Assembly: GCA_016786465.1 (NCBI GenBank)
Contig: JAEUWC010000026.1
Location: 1 to 64,000 of the forward strand
Direction: 5' to 3'
Length of the DNA stretch: 64,000 nt
DNA from: Bdellovibrionales bacterium
GTDB lineage: Bacteria > Bdellovibrionota > UBA1018
The notes below the pieces were generated by a model. The model saw only the letters and a list, made by a program, of their open reading frames with translations. It was not told the origin of the DNA and ran no database searches. This document shows positions 3,281 through 31,542 of this stretch, in pieces. Each line of letters starts with the position of its first letter. Position 1 is the first letter of the stretch. The position numbers and the translations under genes are program-made.

Positions 3281-3572
3281 TGAAGGGTAGTTAACAGTTT
3301 GCATAAAAGTTTAGGCCCACGGACATGGGCCGTTTGAAGAGGTGGTTGACCATCAACCCCCCTTTGAAAAAGGCAAACCGACCGAAAGGTCGTGTACGCA
3401 AAGCCACGGGGCTTCCCGACTAACTACCCCGATAGTCGGATGCCAGCCGAGCTGCCAAAGGTAGAGCAAACGGTCGAGCGATTGACCGACTCAATCTCAA
3501 AGGGGGTCCCCTAGTGGGACCTCCTCTTCATCTCCCCGAGGCCCGCGTCGCTTGAATGTGACGCGGGCCTTA
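3281..3572 (+). ncRNA. Stand-alone c-di-GMP-I (GEMM) riboswitch RNA, merRNA-like
   Basis: The aptamer core spans about 3366-3460: GGCAAACC (3372-3379), a GACC-GAAA-GGTC hairpin with the GAAA tetraloop, ACGCAAAGCC, and a GCCGAGCTGCC 3' strand, the hallmarks of the GEMM-I aptamer. By eye the positions equivalent to Vc2 G20 (3373), A47 (in CAAAG) and C92 (3455), which contact the ligand, are all kept. Two hairpins precede the core (3314-3331 and 3344-3358) and two follow it (3501-3525 and 3540-3569), so the RNA appears to end before the next gene. In Bdellovibrio bacteriovorus an abundant transcript built on such an aptamer (merRNA) has been described. Here it might also govern queE, whose GTG lies 25 nt after the last hairpin. 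The 3211-3594 interval holds no protein gene. Confidence 0.8.
3501..3525 (+). terminator. Hairpin downstream of the GEMM aptamer
   Basis: A 10-bp stem (AGGGGGTCCC with GGGACCTCCT, one G-U pair) and a 5-nt loop, followed by CTTCATCT rather than a clean T run. It may act as the expression platform or a pausing hairpin of the riboswitch. Confidence 0.45.
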
Positions 3573-9913: not shown

Positions 9914-10735
9914 ATGCCACTTTTTGAAACATTAGTTTACAGCTTGGTTGTCGCTCTTGGCGAAATATTTCCCGTCAGCGCAAATGCTCACGTGGAACTG
10001 GTTTCAAAAATCTTGGGTTGGAACACCCCCAGCACGGCGTTTCTTGGGGTTTCCACTTTGGGTACCGCCCTAGGAATCCTGATCGCACTTCGGCATGACT
10101 GGGCCAGTATTTTTTCGGCCCTGATTCAGGTCATCTTGTTTCGCAAAAAACCGATGACCTTTGATGAAAGACTTCCCTTCTTCCTTTTGATCACGACCGG
10201 CCCCGTGATCCTGGGGCACGTCTACCTTCAAGAAATGGCTTCGGGGTTCTTCAAAGATCCGCTTTGGCTTTTCGCGGGTTTGGTCTTGGGTGCCGTCTTG
10301 ATGGGGCTAACGGAAATCTACAACCGAAAGCTTCGGGGAATGTTTGATTGGAACGCAGGCGATTCTTTCCTGATTGGAATCAGTCAACTAGCTGAATTGA
10401 TCCCTGGCCTAGGGCGCACTACCGGAGTCCTTTTTGCCGGCATGGCTAGAAACTACCACCGCAACGTGGTCGTGAAGTTTCAATTTTATGCAGCAACCCC
10501 GGTTCTGATTTACTTTGGCATTACGCAACTTCGAGGACAGCACGCGATTCGTGAATTAGGCCGAGTGTCGTTTTATTTTTCGCTATTCTTCACCACTGCG
10601 ATTGCGGCGCTTGCGACTTCGTCTTTTGTGAAAAATTCGGAATATAAAAAGTTGAATTCGGCGGTCATTTACCGAATTTGTTTCGTTGTGGTTCTGGGAA
10701 CTGTGATCGGTCTAAAGGCTAAAGGCGTTCTTTAA
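9914..10735 (+). CDS. Diverged UppP/BacA-family membrane protein
   Basis: A 273-residue polytopic membrane protein of the undecaprenyl-diphosphatase family, which recycles the lipid carrier of cell-wall synthesis. It aligns end to end with the canonical UppP at 23599-24420 but its motifs are altered: motif 1 reads VALGEIFPVSANAH, keeping the second Glu but having Val where the first acidic/Gln residue of (E/Q)xxxE belongs, and motif 2 reads IPGLGRTTG instead of PGxSRSG. It may work on another lipid phosphate or be a transporter; DedA-like or regulatory roles cannot be excluded. Stop overlaps the convergent HU-family gene by 4 bp. Confidence 0.7.
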   Translation: MPLFETLVYSLVVALGEIFPVSANAHVELVSKILGWNTPSTAFLGVSTLGTALGILIALRHDWASIFSALIQVILFRKKPMTFDERLPFFLLITTGPVILGHVYLQEMASGFFKDPLWLFAGLVLGAVLMGLTEIYNRKLRGMFDWNAGDSFLIGISQLAELIPGLGRTTGVLFAGMARNYHRNVVVKFQFYAATPVLIYFGITQLRGQHAIRELGRVSFYFSLFFTTAIAALATSSFVKNSEYKKLNSAVIYRICFVVVLGTVIGLKAKGVL

Positions 10736-11013
10736 GCCTTCGAGTCGACCATTTCCTTCAGTTCTTTTCCGACCTTGAAGAACGGAACGCGCTTCGGAGG
10801 AACCTGAACGACTTGTCCCGTCTTGGGGTTGCGTCCTTGGTAGCTTCCGTAACTGCGGTTCACAAAAGAACCAAAGCCACGAATTTCGATTCGATCATCG
10901 CGCTTGAGCGCATCCGACATCATATCGAAAACCATGTTCACAACCGTTTCCGCTTGCTTATGTTGAAGTTTCGCTTTTTCAGCGACGATATTGATCAGAT
11001 CAGCTTTGGTCAT
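10732..11013 (-). CDS. HU/IHF-family DNA-bending protein (IHF-like)
   Basis: A 93-residue member of the bacterial DNA-binding protein family: helical N terminus MTKADLINIVAEKA, the GFGSF turn (47-51), the GRNPKTG beta-arm with its intercalating proline, and FKVGKELK near the end. The MTKxxL opening and FGSF...RNPKTG pattern lean towards the IHF beta subunit, but HU cannot be excluded. It is transcribed divergently from a second HU gene 194 bp away. Its own promoter is leaderless and carries a 12-bp palindrome. Confidence 0.85.
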   Translation of the reverse strand: MTKADLINIVAEKAKLQHKQAETVVNMVFDMMSDALKRDDRIEIRGFGSFVNRSYGSYQGRNPKTGQVVQVPPKRVPFFKVGKELKEMVDSKA

Positions 11014-11207: not shown

Positions 11208-11480
11208 ATGAATAAAGCACAGTTAGTCGAAGCCATCGCAGAAGCCACTCAACAAACCAAAACCAGCGTAGAAAACACCCTGAACGTTGCCTTTGATCTG
11301 ATCAAAGCATCGGTCAAAAAAGACGAAGACGTGACCCTAGTCGGCTTCGGTACCTTCACCAAGTCCAAGCGCCAAGCCCGCAGCGGCCGCAACCCACAAA
11401 CCGGAATGGAAATCAAAATTCCTGAAATGATCGTCCCCCGGTTCCGTCCTGGAAAAGAATTCAAAGACCTTTTGAAATAA
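11208..11480 (+). CDS. HU-family DNA-binding protein
   Basis: A 90-residue HU-type nucleoid protein: MNKAQLVEAIAEAT start, VGFGTF turn, SGRNPQTG DNA-binding arm and the closing PRFRPGKEFKDLL, all normal for HU. HU dimers bend DNA and compact the nucleoid. Start ATG at 11208 has GGAGGGAG eight bases upstream; an in-frame upstream start at 11151 would lack this. It is followed by a long hairpin and a terminator, so it is a single-gene transcript. Confidence 0.92.
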   Translation: MNKAQLVEAIAEATQQTKTSVENTLNVAFDLIKASVKKDEDVTLVGFGTFTKSKRQARSGRNPQTGMEIKIPEMIVPRFRPGKEFKDLLK

Positions 11481-22880: not shown

Positions 22881-23618
22881 ATGTTCGAATTCTTTCACCC
22901 AGACGCCCGCGTTCGGCGACTTTCGCAGATCCAGGGCGAAGCCAATTTTCTAGCCGGCCGGCATTCACGAACCTATGAATTCTTTCGGGTCGTTCGGATC
23001 GCCCTGGAATTCATCCGTGGCTTTCGCGTGATGCACTTCACGCCACCGGGGATCACGGTTTTTGGATCTGCCCGTTTCAAAGAAACCCACCCTGTTTACG
23101 CGCAGGGCGTGACCATCGGACGCCGCCTGGCAGAACAGGGCTTTTGCGTGATCACGGGTGGTGGCCCCGGCGTCATGGAAGCCGCCAATCGCGGAGCACA
23201 CGAAGCCGGTGGCCGATCCATTGGGCTGAACATCGTGCTTCCCCACGAACAATCGGCCAACCGCTTCTGCGACACGGTCGTCACTTTTTATTATTTTTTC
23301 ATCCGCAAGGTCATGCTGATCAAATATTCGTATGCGTACATTATTCTTCCAGGTGGATTTGGAACCTTGGACGAAATGAGTGAAGCGCTGACGTTGATCC
23401 AAACCGGAAAATTGTATGATTTTCCCGTGATCTTGGTGGGTAGCGATTATTGGAAAGGTTTTTTAGACTGGCTAAAAGAAACCCTTCTAAAAGAAGGAAC
23501 GATCAAGGAATCTGACTTAGATTATCTGACGATCGTCGATGACCCCGAAGAAGCCATCCAAAAAGTTTGCGAAGTCGCAAAGGCGCTGGCCCTTCCGCTT
23601 AAACGCCCAAAACCTTAA
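22881..23618 (+). CDS. LOG-family (TIGR00730) nucleotide phosphoribohydrolase
   Basis: A 245-residue protein with the LOG signature: ITVFGSARFKETHP, VITGGGPGVMEAANRGA (phosphate-binding), and LPGGFGTLDEMSEALTLIQTGK (PGGxGTxxE with catalytic Glu). Members cleave nucleoside 5'-monophosphates into base and ribose 5-phosphate; in plants and some bacteria this yields cytokinins. The N-terminal 50 residues are an extra helical region found in the longer bacterial branch. It is convergent with uppP and overlaps it by 20 bp. Confidence 0.88.
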   Translation: MFEFFHPDARVRRLSQIQGEANFLAGRHSRTYEFFRVVRIALEFIRGFRVMHFTPPGITVFGSARFKETHPVYAQGVTIGRRLAEQGFCVITGGGPGVMEAANRGAHEAGGRSIGLNIVLPHEQSANRFCDTVVTFYYFFIRKVMLIKYSYAYIILPGGFGTLDEMSEALTLIQTGKLYDFPVILVGSDYWKGFLDWLKETLLKEGTIKESDLDYLTIVDDPEEAIQKVCEVAKALALPLKRPKP

Positions 23619-24420
23619 AGATCGCAAAAGCCAAAGCGATTCGATAAATCGCGAAACCTAAAAAACCCATTCGCGACACAAACTTTAAAAGAAACCCGAT
23701 CGCTGCCCAGCCCGCCAGAAACGAACTTGCAAAACCCGCGATCAAGACCGCAGCCCCGACTTGGCTTTGAAGTAGTTCATCAAAATGCCGCATTTCAAAA
23801 ACCAAGGCAGCAGCCGTGATGGGTGCAGAAAGCCAGAACGAAAAGCGTGCCGCTTCTTGACGTGAAAGTCCCAAAGTTCTTCCACCGATCAATGTGCTTC
23901 CTGAACGAGACATCCCAGGGACCAGCGCCAAACATTGAAAGAAACCTATGGCAATTGCGCCACGAACGCCCAGATCCGCCGTCTTTTTCTGGGATGAAGA
24001 CTTCAGAAATCTTTCCCGGTAAAGGTCCACCGCCCATAGAAGAAGCCCGCCCAGCGCCAAGGTCACCACCAAGATCGAATTCGCCCGAAGTTCCGAAGCA
24101 ATAACCTTTCGAAAGACCGCACCAAAGGCCAAAGCCGGAACCGTTGCGGCTGCAACCCAACCCAGCTTGGTTGCAAAGAAATTGCCGGGTTTTTTCGCTA
24201 AAACCGACATTCCTTCAGAAAAAAGAGCGACCCAGTCTTTCTTGAAAAACCAAAGCGTCGAAGCCAACGTCCCCGCATGAAGAAAGACGTCAAAGGCCAG
24301 TCCCGGATCCTGAGTTCCTAAAAACCGGGGCAGCAAAATCAGGTGCGCCGATGATGATACAGGCAGGTATTCCGTGATCCCCTGGACCACACCAAAGAGA
24401 ATTGATTCCCAAATATTCAT
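23599..24420 (-). CDS. uppP: Undecaprenyl-diphosphatase UppP (BacA)
   Basis: A 273-residue inner-membrane protein with eight or so hydrophobic segments that dephosphorylates undecaprenyl diphosphate for reuse in peptidoglycan and surface polysaccharide synthesis. Both catalytic motifs are intact: QGITEYLPVSSSAH ((E/Q)xxxE and the SSSxH loop) and LVPGMSRSGSTLIGG (PGxSRSxxT). I chose ATG at 24420, where family similarity starts (MNIWESILFGVVQGITE). It is divergent from the FKBP gene 70 bp away. A second, diverged copy lies at 9914-10735. Confidence 0.95.
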   Translation of the reverse strand: MNIWESILFGVVQGITEYLPVSSSAHLILLPRFLGTQDPGLAFDVFLHAGTLASTLWFFKKDWVALFSEGMSVLAKKPGNFFATKLGWVAAATVPALAFGAVFRKVIASELRANSILVVTLALGGLLLWAVDLYRERFLKSSSQKKTADLGVRGAIAIGFFQCLALVPGMSRSGSTLIGGRTLGLSRQEAARFSFWLSAPITAAALVFEMRHFDELLQSQVGAAVLIAGFASSFLAGWAAIGFLLKFVSRMGFLGFAIYRIALAFAIFKVLGV

Positions 24421-24489
24421 TATTTTATTGACTGTAGCCGGATCCGATAGATGATTTCCAGTATCGAATTTCATCATCAAGGAGACACC

Positions 24490-24963
24490 ATGTTCGCGAA
24501 CATGTTTATGAAATCTAAGTTTACGGCTGCTACCTTCACCGCGGTCTGCGCGCTTGCTTTTGCGTCGTGCACCAAAGGCTGCGGAAACTCGGGCAGCGGC
24601 ACCGCTGACACGGCATCGAATCCTGCCGCAGCTGCAATGGCGGACCTAAAGATCGACGACGTGAAGACCGGTGACGGCGCAGAAGCCGTGGCTGGAAAAG
24701 TTGTGGTCGTTCATTACACAGGCACCCTGACCGATGGAAAGAAGTTCGATTCTTCTGTCGACCGCGGTTCTCCTTTCAAATTTACACTGGGCGCTGGACA
24801 AGTCATCCAGGGCTGGGACAAAGGCGTTGCAGGAATGAAAGTCGGCGGCAAGCGCAAGCTGACGATTCCTCCTGCCTTGGGTTATGGCGAGCGCGGCGCT
24901 GGCGGAGTCATTCCTCCAAACGCAACGCTGGTCTTCGATGTTGAATTGCTTGGCGTGGAATAA
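24490..24963 (+). CDS. FKBP-type peptidyl-prolyl isomerase lipoprotein
   Basis: A 157-residue protein with a signal peptide and lipobox (FAS-C27), then an Ala/Ser linker and a complete FKBP domain: [70 protein letters not shown], with the active-site Tyr, Phe, Asp, Trp and Ile positions conserved. It catalyses prolyl isomerisation during folding of periplasmic proteins. AAGGAG lies six bases before ATG 24490. The histone gene follows after 25 nt and probably shares its transcript. Confidence 0.93.
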
Positions 24964-24988
24964 CGAAAGAACGAAAGGACCAAACAAG

Positions 24989-25195
24989 ATGGACAATCAG
25001 GATCAAGGCGCTGGCGGTGAAATTCTAGTCGTTGCATCAAAGTTGAAAGGCTACATCCGCGACAAAAGCGGCATGAACACTTCAGCTGCGGTGATGCCTG
25101 CTCTTTCTGGCAAGATTCGCGCACTTTGCGACCAAGCCATTGAGAACGCGAAAAAAGACGGACGCAAAACCGTCATGGATCGCGACTTCGGCTAA
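24989..25195 (+). CDS. Bacterial histone (HBb-type, single histone fold)
   Basis: A 68-residue protein that forms almost only a histone fold: helix 1 ILVVASKLKGYIRDK (12-26), helix 2 SAAVMPALSGKIRALCDQAIENAKKD (32-57), and the diagnostic R59-K60-T61 loop before the short third helix (VMDRDFG). GRKT-V-x-x-x-D is the same closing motif as archaeal histones and Bdellovibrio HBb, a major chromatin protein reported to bind DNA end-on. The N terminus is a flexible acidic stretch (MDNQDQGAGG). AAAGGA precedes the ATG. Same strand as the FKBP gene, followed by a strong terminator. Confidence 0.85.
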   Translation: MDNQDQGAGGEILVVASKLKGYIRDKSGMNTSAAVMPALSGKIRALCDQAIENAKKDGRKTVMDRDFG

Positions 25196-25208
25196 AAGTC
25201 TGAACTTC

Positions 25209-25245
25209 AAGGGGCGTCCCGTTCAATCGGGGCGCCCCTTTTTTT
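25209..25245 (+). terminator. Strong Rho-independent terminator after the histone gene
   Basis: AAGGGGCG-T-CCCG (25209-25221), loop TTCAAT, CGGG-G-CGCCCCTT (25228-25240) and a run of seven T ending at 25245. The start codon of the globin gene follows with no gap. Confidence 0.9.
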
Positions 25246-25659
25246 ATGCACTTCGAAACTCCGAACCAAAAAAAACTTCGCACGATTTGGGCTTCACTGG
25301 GAAATACTCCCACCGAAGCCGAAGTACGCCTTCAAGAAATCCTAGTCGACTTTTACGAAACCCAGGCACGCGATGTTTTGATTGGATTCTTTTTCACGGG
25401 TCGGGATTTAGTCACGATTGCAACCCACCAAAAGTCTTTTTTGATGAAGGCCATGGGGGTGACCCCCACATTCCAAGGAAAGGTCCCCGCAAAAGCCCAC
25501 ACCGATCTGCCCCCGATCCTGTCAGGACACTTTGATCGGCGTCTGGTCCTGCTGGCCGAAGTTCTAAAGCGCCATGGAATGGCGGATAAGGATATCCGAA
25601 TTTGGGTGGGTTTCGAGGCTTCTTTTCGCGAAGTGATCGTATCCCAGCCCCCTGCCTAA
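25246..25659 (+). CDS. Truncated hemoglobin (group III-like)
   Basis: A 137-residue 2/2 globin. The B-E region FYETQARDVLIGFFFTGRDLVTIATHQKSFLMKAMG has the usual aromatic cluster; KAHTDLPPILSGHFDRRLVLLAEVL holds the likely proximal His (in KAHTDLP) and the HFDR pattern of group III; IRIWVGFEASFREVIV closes helix H. These proteins bind oxygen or nitric oxide, or handle redox chemistry. The ATG abuts the T run of the histone terminator, so its transcription is unclear: read-through or an unseen leaderless promoter inside the hairpin. Confidence 0.75.
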   Translation: MHFETPNQKKLRTIWASLGNTPTEAEVRLQEILVDFYETQARDVLIGFFFTGRDLVTIATHQKSFLMKAMGVTPTFQGKVPAKAHTDLPPILSGHFDRRLVLLAEVLKRHGMADKDIRIWVGFEASFREVIVSQPPA

Positions 25660-25739
25660 AACCTAGGCATGGCGGGCCTTCTAGACCCCCTTAAGACCCC
25701 TTTAAAGACGATCTAAGGATACGAAAAGACGCGGTTTTC

Positions 25740-25755
25740 TGGCACATCCCCTGCT
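25740..25755 (+). promoter_or_regulatory. Probable sigma-54 (-24/-12) promoter
   Basis: TGGCACATCCCCTGCT matches TGGCAC-R-N4-TTGCW with one mismatch (C for the first T of TTGC) and keeps the invariant GG and GC ten bases apart. The predicted start, about 12 nt after GC, is near 25766, two bases before ATG 25768. A weak sigma-70 alternative is TTTTCT-16-TAGGTC. Confidence 0.5.
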
Positions 25756-25767
25756 TTAGGTCTAAGC

Positions 25768-27009
25768 ATGAAGACCTTGTTTGCATTGTCGATGTTGGCC
25801 TGGGTCGCCCCTGCCCTGACCCCATCCGCCCAGGCTGTGACCCACACGGGTGAAATCTTTGCCACCGATCTTCATGGCCAAGTTTTGACACGTTTTTACA
25901 AAGCCCCAAGCGACGATGCCGATCGTACGGTGGTTTATTACTTTCCAAAATCCGTTCGCAACGTCCGCGCGGGCGCAAAGCCGCGCAAGACTTTATTCTT
26001 TTTACACGGCGGCGGATTCGACACCGCCGATGATGCTTCCGCCACCGCACAAGGCATAAGCCGAATTGAAAGCTTCATTCCGTATGCCGAAGAAAACAAA
26101 GTCATCCTGATCTTTCCCACCAGCGCTTACGGATGGAACGCTCACACGTCTTATTTTCTTCGTCACCTGGTTCGTGACTGCCAAGCCCAGTTGGCGATTG
26201 ACGATGACCACATGGTCTTGGCCGGACAATCCATGGGGGGAATGGGAATTTCTCGCGAGTACCCTTGGCTGACCGACCTGTTTTCAGGATTTCTAGGAAT
26301 GTCTTCTGGAACGCAGCCGTCGATGGTGAAGGAAAACCTGCTTTTGCCTTACTTAAACGGAACTCCTTACATTCAAATGAATCCCAAGGACGACGAACAC
26401 TTCGCGGACTTTGACGATCTGATGCGAAAATTCAAAACCGAACTGGAAGCCGTCGAAACCAAGTACGGGCGTACAGCAACTTTTGAATTGGTTTTTCGTG
26501 AAGGCGGACATAATTTTGCGCCCCATATGGAAAAGGTCGAAACCCAACTGGACCGGCTTTTTCAAGTTCCTAAGAATCGTTTCCCCAAGTTTTTTCTTTC
26601 CCGCTTGGATCGCGTGAATCGGGTGGCAACGACCGCACAGCTTTCAAAAACGGAAACCGACGCAGCTGGCGTGAAGACCACAGTGACCAAGACCGCAATC
26701 GTCCCCAAGGTTGAAGCTCAGGTGGATGAAACCTTTTGGATTCAGGTCAAAAATTTTAAGAACGAAACACCACCCGCGCCCCCAAGCAGTGAAAGGCTTC
26801 TTCTTTTAGTCGAAGTGCAAGGCCAGGAAATTCGCCTAACCCGACGGGAAGACACCTTGAAGCCCGCAGTGGCGCTTTTGGATCTGAATTCCCGGCTGAT
26901 TCGAATGAACCAACCCGTCACCGTCACGGTGGACGGCAAGGTCGTTTTTCATGGAAAAGTCAGTCGACGCACAAAGCTTTCAGTGCCGCTTGACGCGTCG
27001 TCGCCTTAG
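25768..27009 (+). CDS. Exported esterase/hydrolase with C-terminal extension
   Basis: A 413-residue protein with a signal peptide (cleavage after AQA, near residue 23). The alpha/beta hydrolase domain shows the oxyanion segment LFFLHGGGFD, nucleophile LAGQSMGGMG, an acid loop near NPKDDEHFADFDD and His in REGGHNFAPH, as in PHB-depolymerase or feruloyl-esterase-like (D-/esterase D) enzymes. Residues from about 275 form a separate beta-rich domain, perhaps for binding. It would attack esters in the periplasm or prey. Its promoter looks sigma-54 dependent. It overlaps the top6A gene tail-to-tail by 4 bp. Confidence 0.65.
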   Translation: MKTLFALSMLAWVAPALTPSAQAVTHTGEIFATDLHGQVLTRFYKAPSDDADRTVVYYFPKSVRNVRAGAKPRKTLFFLHGGGFDTADDASATAQGISRIESFIPYAEENKVILIFPTSAYGWNAHTSYFLRHLVRDCQAQLAIDDDHMVLAGQSMGGMGISREYPWLTDLFSGFLGMSSGTQPSMVKENLLLPYLNGTPYIQMNPKDDEHFADFDDLMRKFKTELEAVETKYGRTATFELVFREGGHNFAPHMEKVETQLDRLFQVPKNRFPKFFLSRLDRVNRVATTAQLSKTETDAAGVKTTVTKTAIVPKVEAQVDETFWIQVKNFKNETPPAPPSSERLLLLVEVQGQEIRLTRREDTLKPAVALLDLNSRLIRMNQPVTVTVDGKVVFHGKVSRRTKLSVPLDASSP

Positions 27010-28163
27010 ACGTAATCGCCGCGCTTGATTTTTTCGACGATGATCTTTTCCGGCATCGTTGGATCACGTGGATCGACAGTGAAATACGCCTGCTGTTCGC
27101 AACGACGCTTGTGTTCCAAAAGCCATTTTAGAATCTGGGTCAGACCCTTGTTCTTCTTGTCCAAGAAAAACGGATCGTTCTTCATCGCATCAGAAGCTTT
27201 TTTAAGGGCACGAACTTCTTGGGCGTCATTTTCCTTAACCGGGTAATCGTTCAGGTCGTATTTTTTGATGTCTTCAGGCAAAACCCCCAAAAATCGAACT
27301 TCCGGGGCGGAAAAATCTTCGTTTCGAATCAAAGACGAAGCCGAACCGGCCTTCAGCGTACGAAAAATGTTTTGCATCGTGTACGCGTCCAGATCGCCGT
27401 AAAAATACAGGGGCACGCGCAGCTGATCCTGGATCAACTTGCACCATCCGCGAACGGCGTTGGACGGAACACCGCCGGCGCCCATCAAAATCGAATTGTG
27501 TCGCTTGGTAAAACCGTTGGCGACCAGGGTATTTGCGGTACCTTCGGATTCCACGATCAGGCAAAAGTCGATTTTCTTTTTCGCCGACAGCTTTAAATTT
27601 TGCGGCCGGTTCTTGGGCTGAAACGGCGAAGTCCCAAGTTTAGACAAATCGACAACGGCTTTATCCCCATCGGGAAGTGTTTCAGTAACGACCAACTGCT
27701 GCGAATAGGTCTGCCCGCCGCGATCGTTCGCATAGCAATTCAGTTCTTCGCGGTAGCATTCCAAAAGTTCACAGATAAAATCGATGATTTCATCGGATTC
27801 ATCTTGGTCGGCAAAGTCCAATGGCTTCAAGTCGGGGTTGTGCTTAATTTCACCTTTGGAAATATAGTACAATTCCCTTTTCGTGTTCACTGCACCGGTG
27901 TCCAGGTTTCGAAGCAAGATTTCCAACATGAAAATCGCTCGAGACATTTTCTTCACCGAACTGACGTTCAATTCAGTTGCGACTTTCTTGGATCCAGGCG
28001 TGAAAAACCCCACCTTGTGGTTATAGATGGCGTTATCCAAAGAACACTTGGTTGCGTACAAAACGGGGCGCTTGGCGCGTTCCAGATCCTGAAGCAAGCG
28101 ATTGCAAAGGTCTTTGCTTAATTTTGGGATTTCATCACTGCTGGACATCAGATTTTTTGACAT
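27006..28163 (-). CDS. top6A: DNA topoisomerase VI subunit A (Spo11-like)
   Basis: A 385-residue type IIB topoisomerase cleavage subunit. The winged-helix/5Y-CAP part has TKRELYYISKG (residues 94-104) with the catalytic tyrosine at Y99 or Y100. The Toprim domain has the metal-binding Glu in LIVESEGTANTL (E205/E207) and D257-x-D259 in YFYGDLDAYT. Together with subunit B it makes a transient double-strand break with 2-nt overhangs, passes another duplex and reseals, relaxing and decatenating DNA. The gene sits 1 nt after the top6B stop, a clear operon. Topo VI is standard in archaea and plants and scattered in bacteria. Confidence 0.9.
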   Translation of the reverse strand: MSKNLMSSSDEIPKLSKDLCNRLLQDLERAKRPVLYATKCSLDNAIYNHKVGFFTPGSKKVATELNVSSVKKMSRAIFMLEILLRNLDTGAVNTKRELYYISKGEIKHNPDLKPLDFADQDESDEIIDFICELLECYREELNCYANDRGGQTYSQQLVVTETLPDGDKAVVDLSKLGTSPFQPKNRPQNLKLSAKKKIDFCLIVESEGTANTLVANGFTKRHNSILMGAGGVPSNAVRGWCKLIQDQLRVPLYFYGDLDAYTMQNIFRTLKAGSASSLIRNEDFSAPEVRFLGVLPEDIKKYDLNDYPVKENDAQEVRALKKASDAMKNDPFFLDKKNKGLTQILKWLLEHKRRCEQQAYFTVDPRDPTMPEKIIVEKIKRGDYV

Positions 28164-28164
28164 A

Positions 28165-29982
28165 TTACGCCTCGACCTCGGCTTCTGCGGCCTTCTTTGA
28201 ATTCTTCTGGGATGCTTTTGCGGTCTGTTCTTCTAGAACATCATGCGCAGCTTTCAATTCTTTTTCCGTGTCACGAGCATCGCGTCCCAAAAGCTTGGCA
28301 ATGCCGTCTTCGGCTTTCTTGCGACGTGAATCGCTGGCCTTGGTGATTCGCGCCAAACCTGCGACCAAAATGGGGCAGAATTGCTCAATATGGCGAAGCT
28401 TTTCTTCCAGTTCGTTCGCCTTCACTTCTTTGCGAATATGCTTGGAAAGACGCTGACCCGACTGAATCAATGCGCGGCGAATTTCTTCAACCAATTCGTC
28501 TGATCCATCGATGGTTTCTTTGGACGCGTTTTTGAACCGAATAAACGGCGAAACCACCGAAACGGCGATGATGTAAGGACCTTGCGGAAGCGATTCTTTC
28601 GGTTGTCCAAGCCCGTACGCGCGCCAGTTCACCGACTGAATGGCGTGAACAATGGCGCAAGCGGATTTATCAAACTGCAACGGCACTCGGTTCGCAAAAC
28701 GAAGGACTTGAACCGGAGCATCGGCTTCAATGCTTCGGTCTTCTAAGCGCGCTACTGCGACTTCAATTTGAACGGGCTTGAAATCACAGATCGTGGGCTT
28801 TCTTGAAACGACTGAAAAAAAGTCGATTGCTCCCAAGCGCTTGATGCTTTTTGCCATCGCATCTTCACCAATCGACAAAACCGACTTGGTCGATGGCGCC
28901 ATCAAAGGAATGTTTTGAATGGCCATGAAAAGTTCTTTGAATTCACTTTCATGAAGGGAATCCACCAGCTTTTCAAAAATGCCGTTTTTGATCCCGGCTG
29001 CGTTCAGTTCCTTAAGCGTGCCTTCATGGACCCGCGAAAACCCTTTTTTTAGCCAGGCTCCGACTTTGACGCGTCCGAAAAGATGGGAATGCGCAATGAA
29101 TTCTCCAAGCTTCATCGTGTGCGGATGGGGTTCGACTGCAGATGGAATTTCAGGAACGGTGTTGGAAACCCTTTCAACCGTGTGAAGTTCCATTTCGGGA
29201 AGCTTATAATGCAAAGTTAAATGCGGGTTCACCAGGGTCGTGCCGTTCAAATAACTGATCAAGCCTGCTTCGCCGTTCAATTGAATGCGGCCGTCGATCA
29301 GAAATTCGACTGAAGTCCCGTGCGGTTTTTCCCAATCGACGGAATCTTTTTCTTTCAAGACCCCTGTGTTGTTCTTGATGTCGACTTCAACGATGCAACG
29401 CACAGCCTTGCGCATCTTTTCAGTCTTGGTGACCACGCGGGCGCCCACGGCCGAAGTCAATTGTGCCCATGTGGTTGCGGCCGAAATCCCAATCCCCTGC
29501 TGACCGCGAGAACATCGGCCGCGACCGAACTTGGAAGACGCCAGGTATTCTCCGAAAACTTTCGGTACGTCTTCAGGGTCAATTCCCGGACCGTTGTCTT
29601 CGACACGAATGCGGACCTGATCTGAATTCTTCAATGAACCCGGGCCCACTTTTTCGACCGTTACAGTGACTTCAGGCAAAATTCCGTTTTCTTCGCAGGC
29701 GTCTAGGCTGTTATCGACGGCTTCTTTCAAAGTCGTCAGGACTGCTTTGACTTGGGACGAAAAGCCGACTTGCTGCAGGTTTTTGGAAAAATATTCGGCG
29801 GTGCTGGATGTCGTGATTCCCTTTTTCGAGGAACTGGACGACTTTGCCTGCTGAATCGCGGCTGATTCTTCGGCCGATTCCTTGGTTTTTGTGGCCTTTG
29901 GAGCAGCCGCCTTCTTGTCCGACGCTTTTGCTTTGGTGGCTGGAGCGGATTTCTTGGGTTGGGATTTCTTCGCCATATCCAT
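28165..29982 (-). CDS. top6B: DNA topoisomerase VI subunit B with H1-like N-terminal tail
   Basis: A 605-residue ATPase subunit of topoisomerase VI. The GHKL ATPase reads LTTLKEAVDNSLDACEENGILPE (N box), VEDNGPGIDPEDVPKVFGEYLASSKF (G1) and SRGQQGIGISAATTWAQLT (G2); the H2TH region and the transducer with switch lysine follow to about residue 540. The first 55 residues are a Lys/Ala/Ser/Pro-rich disordered tail resembling histone H1 tails, and the C terminus is again charged and Ala/Glu/Lys-rich; neither is part of the archaeal core. ATG at 29976 (third residue) is an alternative start. Divergent from the DEAD-box gene. Confidence 0.93.
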   Translation of the reverse strand: MDMAKKSQPKKSAPATKAKASDKKAAAPKATKTKESAEESAAIQQAKSSSSSKKGITTSSTAEYFSKNLQQVGFSSQVKAVLTTLKEAVDNSLDACEENGILPEVTVTVEKVGPGSLKNSDQVRIRVEDNGPGIDPEDVPKVFGEYLASSKFGRGRCSRGQQGIGISAATTWAQLTSAVGARVVTKTEKMRKAVRCIVEVDIKNNTGVLKEKDSVDWEKPHGTSVEFLIDGRIQLNGEAGLISYLNGTTLVNPHLTLHYKLPEMELHTVERVSNTVPEIPSAVEPHPHTMKLGEFIAHSHLFGRVKVGAWLKKGFSRVHEGTLKELNAAGIKNGIFEKLVDSLHESEFKELFMAIQNIPLMAPSTKSVLSIGEDAMAKSIKRLGAIDFFSVVSRKPTICDFKPVQIEVAVARLEDRSIEADAPVQVLRFANRVPLQFDKSACAIVHAIQSVNWRAYGLGQPKESLPQGPYIIAVSVVSPFIRFKNASKETIDGSDELVEEIRRALIQSGQRLSKHIRKEVKANELEEKLRHIEQFCPILVAGLARITKASDSRRKKAEDGIAKLLGRDARDTEKELKAAHDVLEEQTAKASQKNSKKAAEAEVEA

Positions 29983-30087
29983 GGATTGAAACAGATGAAA
30001 GAAGTCCGGTCAACGAATGTCAGAATTGGATTTGCCGACGCAAAGGCGTGCATTCCGATCAGATTTAGTTTACCGTGGTCACAAATC

Positions 30088-31542
30088 ATGTCGCAGAACA
30101 CCGAACCCACAGCCGCTCCGGCTACGCCCCCTGGTCCTGAAGCGCCTCAAGCTCCTGCTACTTGGGAAGATTTAGGCCTGAGCAAAGATGTTTTAGAAAT
30201 CGTATCTAAGGCCGGCTACACCGCGCCTACGCCGATTCAGGCAAAATCGATTCCTCTGGCGCTGGATCGTTATGACTTGATCGCGTCAGCGCAGACTGGA
30301 ACTGGCAAGACCGCAAGTTTCGTCCTTCCGATGATCGATCGCTTTGCCGGCAAAGAAGGAACCTACGGGCTGATCTTGGCGCCCACGCGCGAAATCGCGC
30401 TTCAGATTCAAGACACGATCAAAATATTCGGGGGCCCGTTGGGGATCCGATCCTGTGTCTTGATCGGCGGCGTGGACTACAAGATTGATGCAGCCGCACT
30501 GAACGCTTATCCGCAAATCATTGTCGCAACCCCAGGACGTCTTTGCGATCACCTGGACCGAGGCAATGTTTGGCTGGAATTCATCCAGATGGTCGTCTTG
30601 GACGAAGCGGACCGAATGCTGGACATGGGGTTTTCAGATCAGCTGAACCGAATCATGAGCGAAGTCCCGGATCGCCGGCAGACGCTTCTTTTTTCGGCAA
30701 CTTTTAGCGCGCCAGTGGAAAAGTTGGCTCGGAAAATCATGTATGAACCCGAACGGATCGCCATTGGACGCCCGACCGCGACGGCGTCGACTGTGGAACA
30801 GTCCGTTCTTTGGGTCATGGAAGAAGATAAGAACCGCGAACTTCGTCGACTGATTCGAAATGAAACAGGAAGCATCATCGTATTTGCTAGGTCCAAGGAC
30901 AAGGCCACCCGGATCTGGCGTTCGCTTCATAGCAATGGTTATTACGACGCGACCTATATTCATTCCGACCGATTGCAATCGCACCGGGAACAGGCGCTGA
31001 ATGAATTTCGCGAAGGAAAGTACCGAATTCTGATTGCAACGGACGTTGCCGGTCGCGGAATTCATGTCGATGGCGTGGCTCATGTCATCAATTTTGATTT
31101 ACCGATGGAACCCGAAGACTACGTTCACCGAATTGGACGCACGGGTCGCGCTGAAATGTCGGGCAAAGCCACAAGTTTTGTAACCCCGATGGATCGCGGA
31201 AAACTGAAAGAAATTCTGGCGCTGGTCAAAAGGGAAATCCCCGAAAAGCTGACCGACGGCTACCCAAAGTCGAAAACTTTGGCCGGAGGATCCGGTGATT
31301 CCGATCGCGGCTCGAGCTATGGCGGCCGCGGTGGTGGTGGCAGCGGCGGAGGCGGTCGTTCACATCGATCGCACGGCGGACGTCCTAGTGGTGGCAGCAG
31401 CAGCGGCGGCCCTGGCGGCGGCGGTGGTGGTGGTGGTGGTGGACGCAGGCCTCGTCGCGGTGGGCGTGGTGGCAGCGGCGGAGGCGGCCCTTCAGGTGGG
31501 GGTCGTTCAACCGGAAACACCGGCGGTCCGGCTTCGACCTAA
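30088..31542 (+). CDS. DEAD-box RNA helicase with Gly/Arg-rich tail (RhlE-like)
   Basis: A 484-residue ATP-dependent RNA helicase with all motifs in order: Q motif PTPIQ, I AQTGTGKT, Ia PTREIALQ, Ib TPGR, II DEAD, III SAT, V ATDVAGRGIH, VI HRIGRTGRAE, ending near residue 385. The remaining about 85 residues are a low-complexity tail of Gly, Ser and Arg with RGG and RRPRRGG clusters and a run of ten Gly, a type that binds RNA and often drives condensation or cold-adapted RNA remodelling. ATG at 30088 has no ribosome site; the open frame extends upstream without similarity. Confidence 0.9.
   Translation: MSQNTEPTAAPATPPGPEAPQAPATWEDLGLSKDVLEIVSKAGYTAPTPIQAKSIPLALDRYDLIASAQTGTGKTASFVLPMIDRFAGKEGTYGLILAPTREIALQIQDTIKIFGGPLGIRSCVLIGGVDYKIDAAALNAYPQIIVATPGRLCDHLDRGNVWLEFIQMVVLDEADRMLDMGFSDQLNRIMSEVPDRRQTLLFSATFSAPVEKLARKIMYEPERIAIGRPTATASTVEQSVLWVMEEDKNRELRRLIRNETGSIIVFARSKDKATRIWRSLHSNGYYDATYIHSDRLQSHREQALNEFREGKYRILIATDVAGRGIHVDGVAHVINFDLPMEPEDYVHRIGRTGRAEMSGKATSFVTPMDRGKLKEILALVKREIPEKLTDGYPKSKTLAGGSGDSDRGSSYGGRGGGGSGGGGRSHRSHGGRPSGGSSSGGPGGGGGGGGGGRRPRRGGRGGSGGGGPSGGGRSTGNTGGPAST

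Follow-up and report, generated by a model that had tools for sequence, protein, structure and literature searches.

Does the closeness of a histone gene and the genes of topoisomerase VI (topo VI) in a bacterium reflect a joint function in chromatin, or an order of genes that was inherited? The question is raised by a stretch of 64,000 nucleotides (here called the window) from a Bdellovibrionales bacterium of the phylum Bdellovibrionota (assembly GCA_016786465.1, contig JAEUWC010000026.1, positions 1 to 64,000), in which a histone gene lies near top6A and top6B, the genes for the two topo VI subunits. A preliminary description of this DNA took the closeness as a sign of an archaeal-style chromatin set. 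By examining the proteins, the order of genes around top6 in relatives, and the occurrence of histone, topo VI and type IIA topoisomerases in the phylum, we arrive at a different reading: it is likely that two independent nucleoid components share an inherited neighbourhood, and that there is no chromatin module. The linkage itself is confirmed, is limited to one order of Bdellovibrionota and, judged by the literature searched, is new in its details; the histone and topo VI proteins are both already known from Bdellovibrio.

We propose that the histone would be expressed as the second gene of a unit with an FKBP-type prolyl isomerase (FKBP), ending at its own terminator; that the Top6B-Top6A enzyme, beside gyrase, would carry out decatenation and positive-supercoil relaxation, which are the tasks of topo IV in other bacteria; and that the closeness would be the ancestral gene order of one Bdellovibrionota order, retained by descent.

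The histone and topoisomerase VI of the window

The histone gene (24989-25195, forward strand) encodes a protein of 68 residues with a single fold of the HBb/Bd0055 type and an RKTVMDRD motif, in agreement with the one-domain, 68-residue RKT histone of the preliminary description. Its identity is based on solved structures and on an orthologue profile, because the library models stayed below their cut-offs: PF00808 scored 16.4 bits against a cut-off of 21.4 (Pfam alone would miss the gene), and NCBIfam NF043032 was likewise below cut-off. The nearest solved structures were 8cmp (E 4e-13) and 8fvx (E 6e-13) by phmmer, over residues 10-67, and a profile of 18 orthologues reached 8cmp at 9e-23; in the 18-row alignment of these orthologues, R59-K60-T61-V62-M63-D64-R65-D66 is invariant. 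The check by profile models that the preliminary description had proposed therefore gave a divided result for the histone, in which PF00808 failed while the orthologue profile and the structures supported the call; for topo VI, PF04406 and PF09239 both match.

The protein has the features of the HBb-type bacterial dimer histones, namely one histone fold, the RKT...D motif and no additional domain; it stops where the fold stops, at residue 68, and has no C-terminal tail. With HBb/Bd0055 of Bdellovibrio bacteriovorus, the model of these 'bacterial dimer' histones (PMC10627809, PMC11317129, PMC11390915), it shares the single fold, a length of about 68 residues, the RKTVMDRD motif, the conserved lysines of alpha-1 and the phylum; it differs in adjoining an FKBP gene and in lying near top6, whereas in another family (f13) the histone gene lies hundreds of kb from top6. 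By analogy with Bd0055, from which the DNA-binding mode is taken (PMC10627809, PMC11317129), the window histone would be a major nucleoid protein, acting as an HBb-type dimer to coat or bend DNA. Elsewhere in the phylum other forms occur: family f5 includes genomes whose histone carries a fused ZZ-type zinc finger (L183, L187, L186) and others whose histone is standalone (L184 and L182), and in family f15, which is topo VI-negative with two type IIA genes, genome G241 (L232/L243) has a pair of same-strand histone-fold matches separated by about 200 bp, with a reported open frame of 145 residues, a possible histone doublet.

Top6A (27006-28163, reverse strand; complete, 385 residues) matches PF21180 at 2e-35, PF04406 at 3e-14 and the structure 1d3y at 1.5e-35, and Top6B (28165-29982, reverse strand; complete, 605 residues) matches PF09239 at 7e-44, the GHKL ATPase family PF02518, the NCBIfam equivalog NF003218 (519 bits against a cut-off of 274) and the structure 2q2e at 4e-86. 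Solved archaeal topo VI aligns with both proteins over most of their length, and the Y-Y pair, the Toprim acidic residues and the ATPase motifs are all retained. The A subunit thus carries the winged-helix and Toprim domains, the catalytic tyrosine region and the acidic residues of type IIB enzymes (alignment to 1d3y and 2zbk), and the B subunit a GHKL ATPase and a Topo-VIb transducer. Since the two open reading frames are one base pair apart, with top6B first, we read them as one unit. Both genes had been called complete and 2 kb from the histone; they are complete, and the distance from the histone to the 3' end of top6A is 1.8 kb.

The window Top6B has a lysine- and alanine-rich, histone-H1-like N-terminal tail. 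In a comparison that took in L173, L176, L177 and L168, lysine-rich tails are also N-terminal in some f1 relatives and are C-terminal in families f20, f23 and f25, there with a net charge of up to +37; some other Top6B proteins have no such tail.

Gene order around top6 in relatives

In 58 relatives searched with the histone and Top6A, and with linkage defined as the same contig within about 7 kb, the window's family gave 19 linked genomes, counting that of the window itself, and the sister families f3 and f6 gave one each. The suggestion that the linkage might be kept in relatives therefore held, and the genes are not unlinked throughout. Genome G005, with its FKBP-histone pair inverted, is the sole exception among the loci examined to a convergent arrangement of histone and top6A; the spacing of the two genes varies from 0.2 to about 6 kb. 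Within the order, families f5, f2 and f4 have not kept the linkage, and in the window's own family two genomes (G003 and G017) lack it as well; elsewhere in the phylum, 20 top6A regions representing 14 families show no histone-side neighbour beside top6A. In family f13 the histone and top6A are 344-1318 kb apart (14 near-complete or complete genomes), in agreement with the B. bacteriovorus locus tags Bd0055 and Bd2864, which are far apart (PMC11318664). Of the 48 histone loci that a search of all public genomes gave, only those in members of the window's order have Top6 within 10 kb, and on a tree of Top6A and Top6B the linked state is limited to one clade with later losses, requiring 6 changes compared with 4 for the linkage of FKBP to top6.

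Is this linkage specific to the histone? A comparison of 40 order and class loci shows the neighbourhood to be a block with the order radical-SAM, LOG, UppP/BacA, FKBP lipoprotein, histone, truncated globin, variable DNA, top6A, top6B. For 28 genomes of the order the sequence extends 7 kb or more from top6A on the histone side; there, FKBP is no more than 7 kb from top6A in 23 genomes, globin in 19, the histone in 15, and LOG and UppP in 11 each, such that the linkage is neither specific to the histone-top6 pair nor better kept than that of other neighbours, FKBP and globin being ahead of the histone. The block also persists without the histone: LOG-FKBP-globin-top6 is kept in all six f5 regions (UppP in five) with the histone located elsewhere, and in genomes G011 and G013 (95% and 97% complete) no histone was seen, yet FKBP-globin-top6 is kept and Top6A is normally conserved (86-90% identity).

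The histone is instead tied to FKBP. In the window the FKBP gene (24490-24963, forward strand; PF00254 at 2e-40) lies 25 bp upstream of the histone and encodes a predicted periplasmic lipoprotein with a lipobox-like signal, and a hairpin resembling an intrinsic terminator (25209-25240, forward strand; 13 bp, -27 kcal/mol, followed by a T-run) begins 13 nt after the histone stop codon. In each of the 27 HBb-histone loci of families f1, f3, f4 and f6 the gene immediately upstream, read from the same strand as the histone, is FKBP; these loci include five genomes in which the pair has left top6 (G003, G017, G020, G006 and G037). A strong terminator-like hairpin follows the histone in 13 of the 27 relatives, FKBP in 0 of 27 and globin in 0 of 16. 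Because of this constant pairing and the hairpin after the histone, the histone most likely forms a transcription unit with FKBP, distinct from the top6 unit that faces it. Why a predicted periplasmic prolyl isomerase is paired with a nucleoid protein is not apparent, there being no evident reason for an exported chaperone there; a role of FKBP as a cytoplasmic histone chaperone is unlikely, since nearly all orthologues bear the lipobox-like signal. An FKBP lipoprotein gene is also found beside top6B, on the opposite side, in three distant families (f22, f24 and f27; L163, L165 and L175), hinting at an older FKBP-top6 neighbourhood. Phylum-wide, no general neighbour of top6 was found except the pairing of top6A with top6B; in other families HNH, glutaredoxin or aconitase genes lie beside top6, by names read from the sequences without searches.

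Several observations weigh against gene order retained by descent as the whole explanation. Most of the window's family has kept the linkage although rearrangement has occurred elsewhere, and the histone flank of top6 is kept better than the other flank (11-23 of 28 genomes versus 1-3 of 28), from which the block may be under some selection; moreover, linkage counts across genomes are not phylogenetically independent. Schwab et al. (PMC11390915, Fig. 7) drew topo VI-like genes in proximity to another histone class, and proximity of histone and topo VI-type genes has thus occurred more than once. The uneven conservation of the flanks and the proximity elsewhere do not, however, single out the histone within the block.

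An unlikely alternative is that the whole block is selected as a neighbourhood, through replication timing or position or through shared growth-phase expression, with the histone as one beneficiary among several. The co-retention of LOG, UppP, FKBP and globin with top6 in f1, f3, f5 and f6, beside a scrambled other flank, is consistent with such selection; but the genes lie on both strands, their predicted functions are not related to one another, and a broken block is seen in f2, in f4 and in some of the f1 genomes.

We consider less probable still a functional chromatin set, as the preliminary description had it, in which topo VI acts on DNA bound by the histone, and a need for co-regulation or co-inheritance keeps the genes close. 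It would account for the convergent linkage within about 7 kb in the 19 family genomes and in f3 and f6, for the better-kept histone flank, and for the topo VI-like genes drawn adjoining IHF histones in other phyla (PMC11390915). A convergent arrangement with variable spacing and variable DNA between the genes, and with a terminator-like hairpin after the histone, argues against it, as do FKBP and globin, which are linked to top6A at least as tightly; the genomes without a histone, which retain topo VI and the block; and the rest of the phylum, in which the genes are unlinked and each protein occurs alone. The operons drawn by Schwab et al. (2024, PMC11390915, Fig. 7), in which topo VI-like genes accompany an IHF histone, resemble the window in having a histone near topo VI-type genes in bacteria, but their histones have a structured C-terminal dimerising tail, share an operon with an IHF-like gene and come from other phyla (Omnitrophota and others), whereas the window histone is a bare fold, convergent to top6, followed by a hairpin and 13.5 kb from the HU/IHF genes, an arrangement that does not form such an operon.

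More doubtful again is the idea that in this uncultured order selection holds the histone within a few kb of topo VI, as the sole decatenase, since HBb-bound DNA would be its working substrate, with the lysine-rich Top6B tails helping on histone-coated DNA. From these sequence comparisons, histone and topo VI would appear to have no joint function.

Topoisomerase VI and type IIA enzymes across the phylum

The occurrence of the two proteins was surveyed in 291 genomes of the phylum. A histone was present in 253 (a count that includes ZZ and other histone-fold types) and top6A in 173, so that the description of both as uncommon, which stands for bacteria at large, does not stand for this phylum sample. 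Both were present in 159 genomes, topo VI without a detectable histone in 14, a histone without topo VI in 94, and neither in 24. As each is kept without the other, co-occurrence does not support a histone-topo VI module, and histone and topo VI are separable traits.

A near mutual exclusion was found between topo VI and a second type IIA enzyme. The window genome has one PF00521 match and one PF00204 match, with no ParC/ParE beside GyrA/GyrB, and its GyrA bears the GyrA box and therefore belongs to gyrase. Exactly one GyrA/ParC-type gene is present in 56 of the 58 relatives, in which the GyrB/ParE-type gene is nearly always single as well (G034 has two, six genomes none). A second type IIA A-subunit occurs in 2 of 168 topo VI-positive genomes compared with 87 of 117 topo VI-negative genomes, a contrast whose significance is inflated by the relatedness of the genomes; an apparent second gene in four topo VI genomes, formed by pieces of one split gyrA, had been taken out of the count. 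The true exceptions, with topo VI and a second type IIA gene, are G077 and G084 (family f14), and the second gene of one complete topo VI-negative genome (L212) is without the GyrA box, as expected of ParC.

Allen and Maxwell (PMC11302465) reported that B. bacteriovorus has gyrase and topo VI and no topo IV, and argued for a decatenase role. The window shares with that system Top6A and Top6B, the presence of gyrase and the absence of topo IV; the 291-genome survey, the near mutual exclusion with a second type IIA enzyme and the lysine-rich Top6B tails go beyond that 2024 study. On this evidence it is likely that topo VI acts as the decatenase in place of topo IV, and topo VI has probably replaced topo IV across much of the phylum. 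The contrast drawn earlier with gyrase plus HU alone was accordingly the wrong one, as topo VI stands in topo IV's place. It is very improbable that a topo IV escaped detection and that topo VI duplicates its work, for although a review lists 'Top IV (Bd0005)' in B. bacteriovorus (PMC11318664) and some Pseudomonadota hold both enzymes (PMC11302465), the single GyrA/ParC-type and usually single GyrB/ParE-type genes of the relatives, the GyrA box of the window genome's GyrA, and the failure of Allen and Maxwell to find topo IV in B. bacteriovorus (PMC11302465) all speak against it.

The small-genome families f11 and f19 (1.2-2.0 Mb) have one GyrA-type gene and no topo VI, and gyrase is possibly their sole type II topoisomerase. 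In f12 and f16, which have a single GyrA, Top6A matches reach only about 1e-45, and their topo VI was probably acquired separately.

Other features of the window and implications for the phylum

Two further members of the conserved block lie upstream of FKBP: a LOG-family (Lysine_decarbox) gene (22881-23618, forward strand; PF03641 at 2e-34) and a UppP/BacA undecaprenyl-diphosphatase gene (23599-24480, reverse strand; PF02673 at 3e-70). Downstream of the histone are a gene for a truncated haemoglobin-like protein (25246-25659, forward strand), the globin of the block (PF01152 in 18 of 20 orthologues, best 4e-14; orthologue profile to the group 1 truncated haemoglobin 3aq5 at 1e-14), and, between the histone and top6A, a gene for a secreted esterase/depolymerase-like protein (25768-27009, forward strand; weak PF00756, NF050058). 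No counterpart of the esterase was found in the relatives' top6 regions, and the idea that it connects histone and top6 in a conserved way was rejected. The two HU/IHF genes that had been placed 14 kb away are present about 13.5 kb from the histone (10732-11013, reverse strand, PF00216 at 9e-31; 11208-11480, forward strand, PF00216 at 2e-30), and a second UppP/BacA paralogue (9914-10735; PF02673) adjoins them. A c-di-GMP-I riboswitch at 3363-3460 is barely over its gathering score (61.1 against 59). A promoter scan of 24300-30300 gave 2 promoter-like sites against 3.5 expected, no excess over chance, and was not used.

We advise against reading this locus as an archaeal chromatin cassette: inheritance of gene order is the best explanation for a linkage that is itself real. 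In Bdellovibrionota a nucleoid based on histones occurs together with a topo VI of archaeal type instead of topo IV, and the replacement of topo IV by topo VI, probable across much of the phylum, matters more than the closeness of histone and top6. With separable traits and a near exclusion of a second type IIA enzyme, the phylum is a natural test bed for decatenase swaps.

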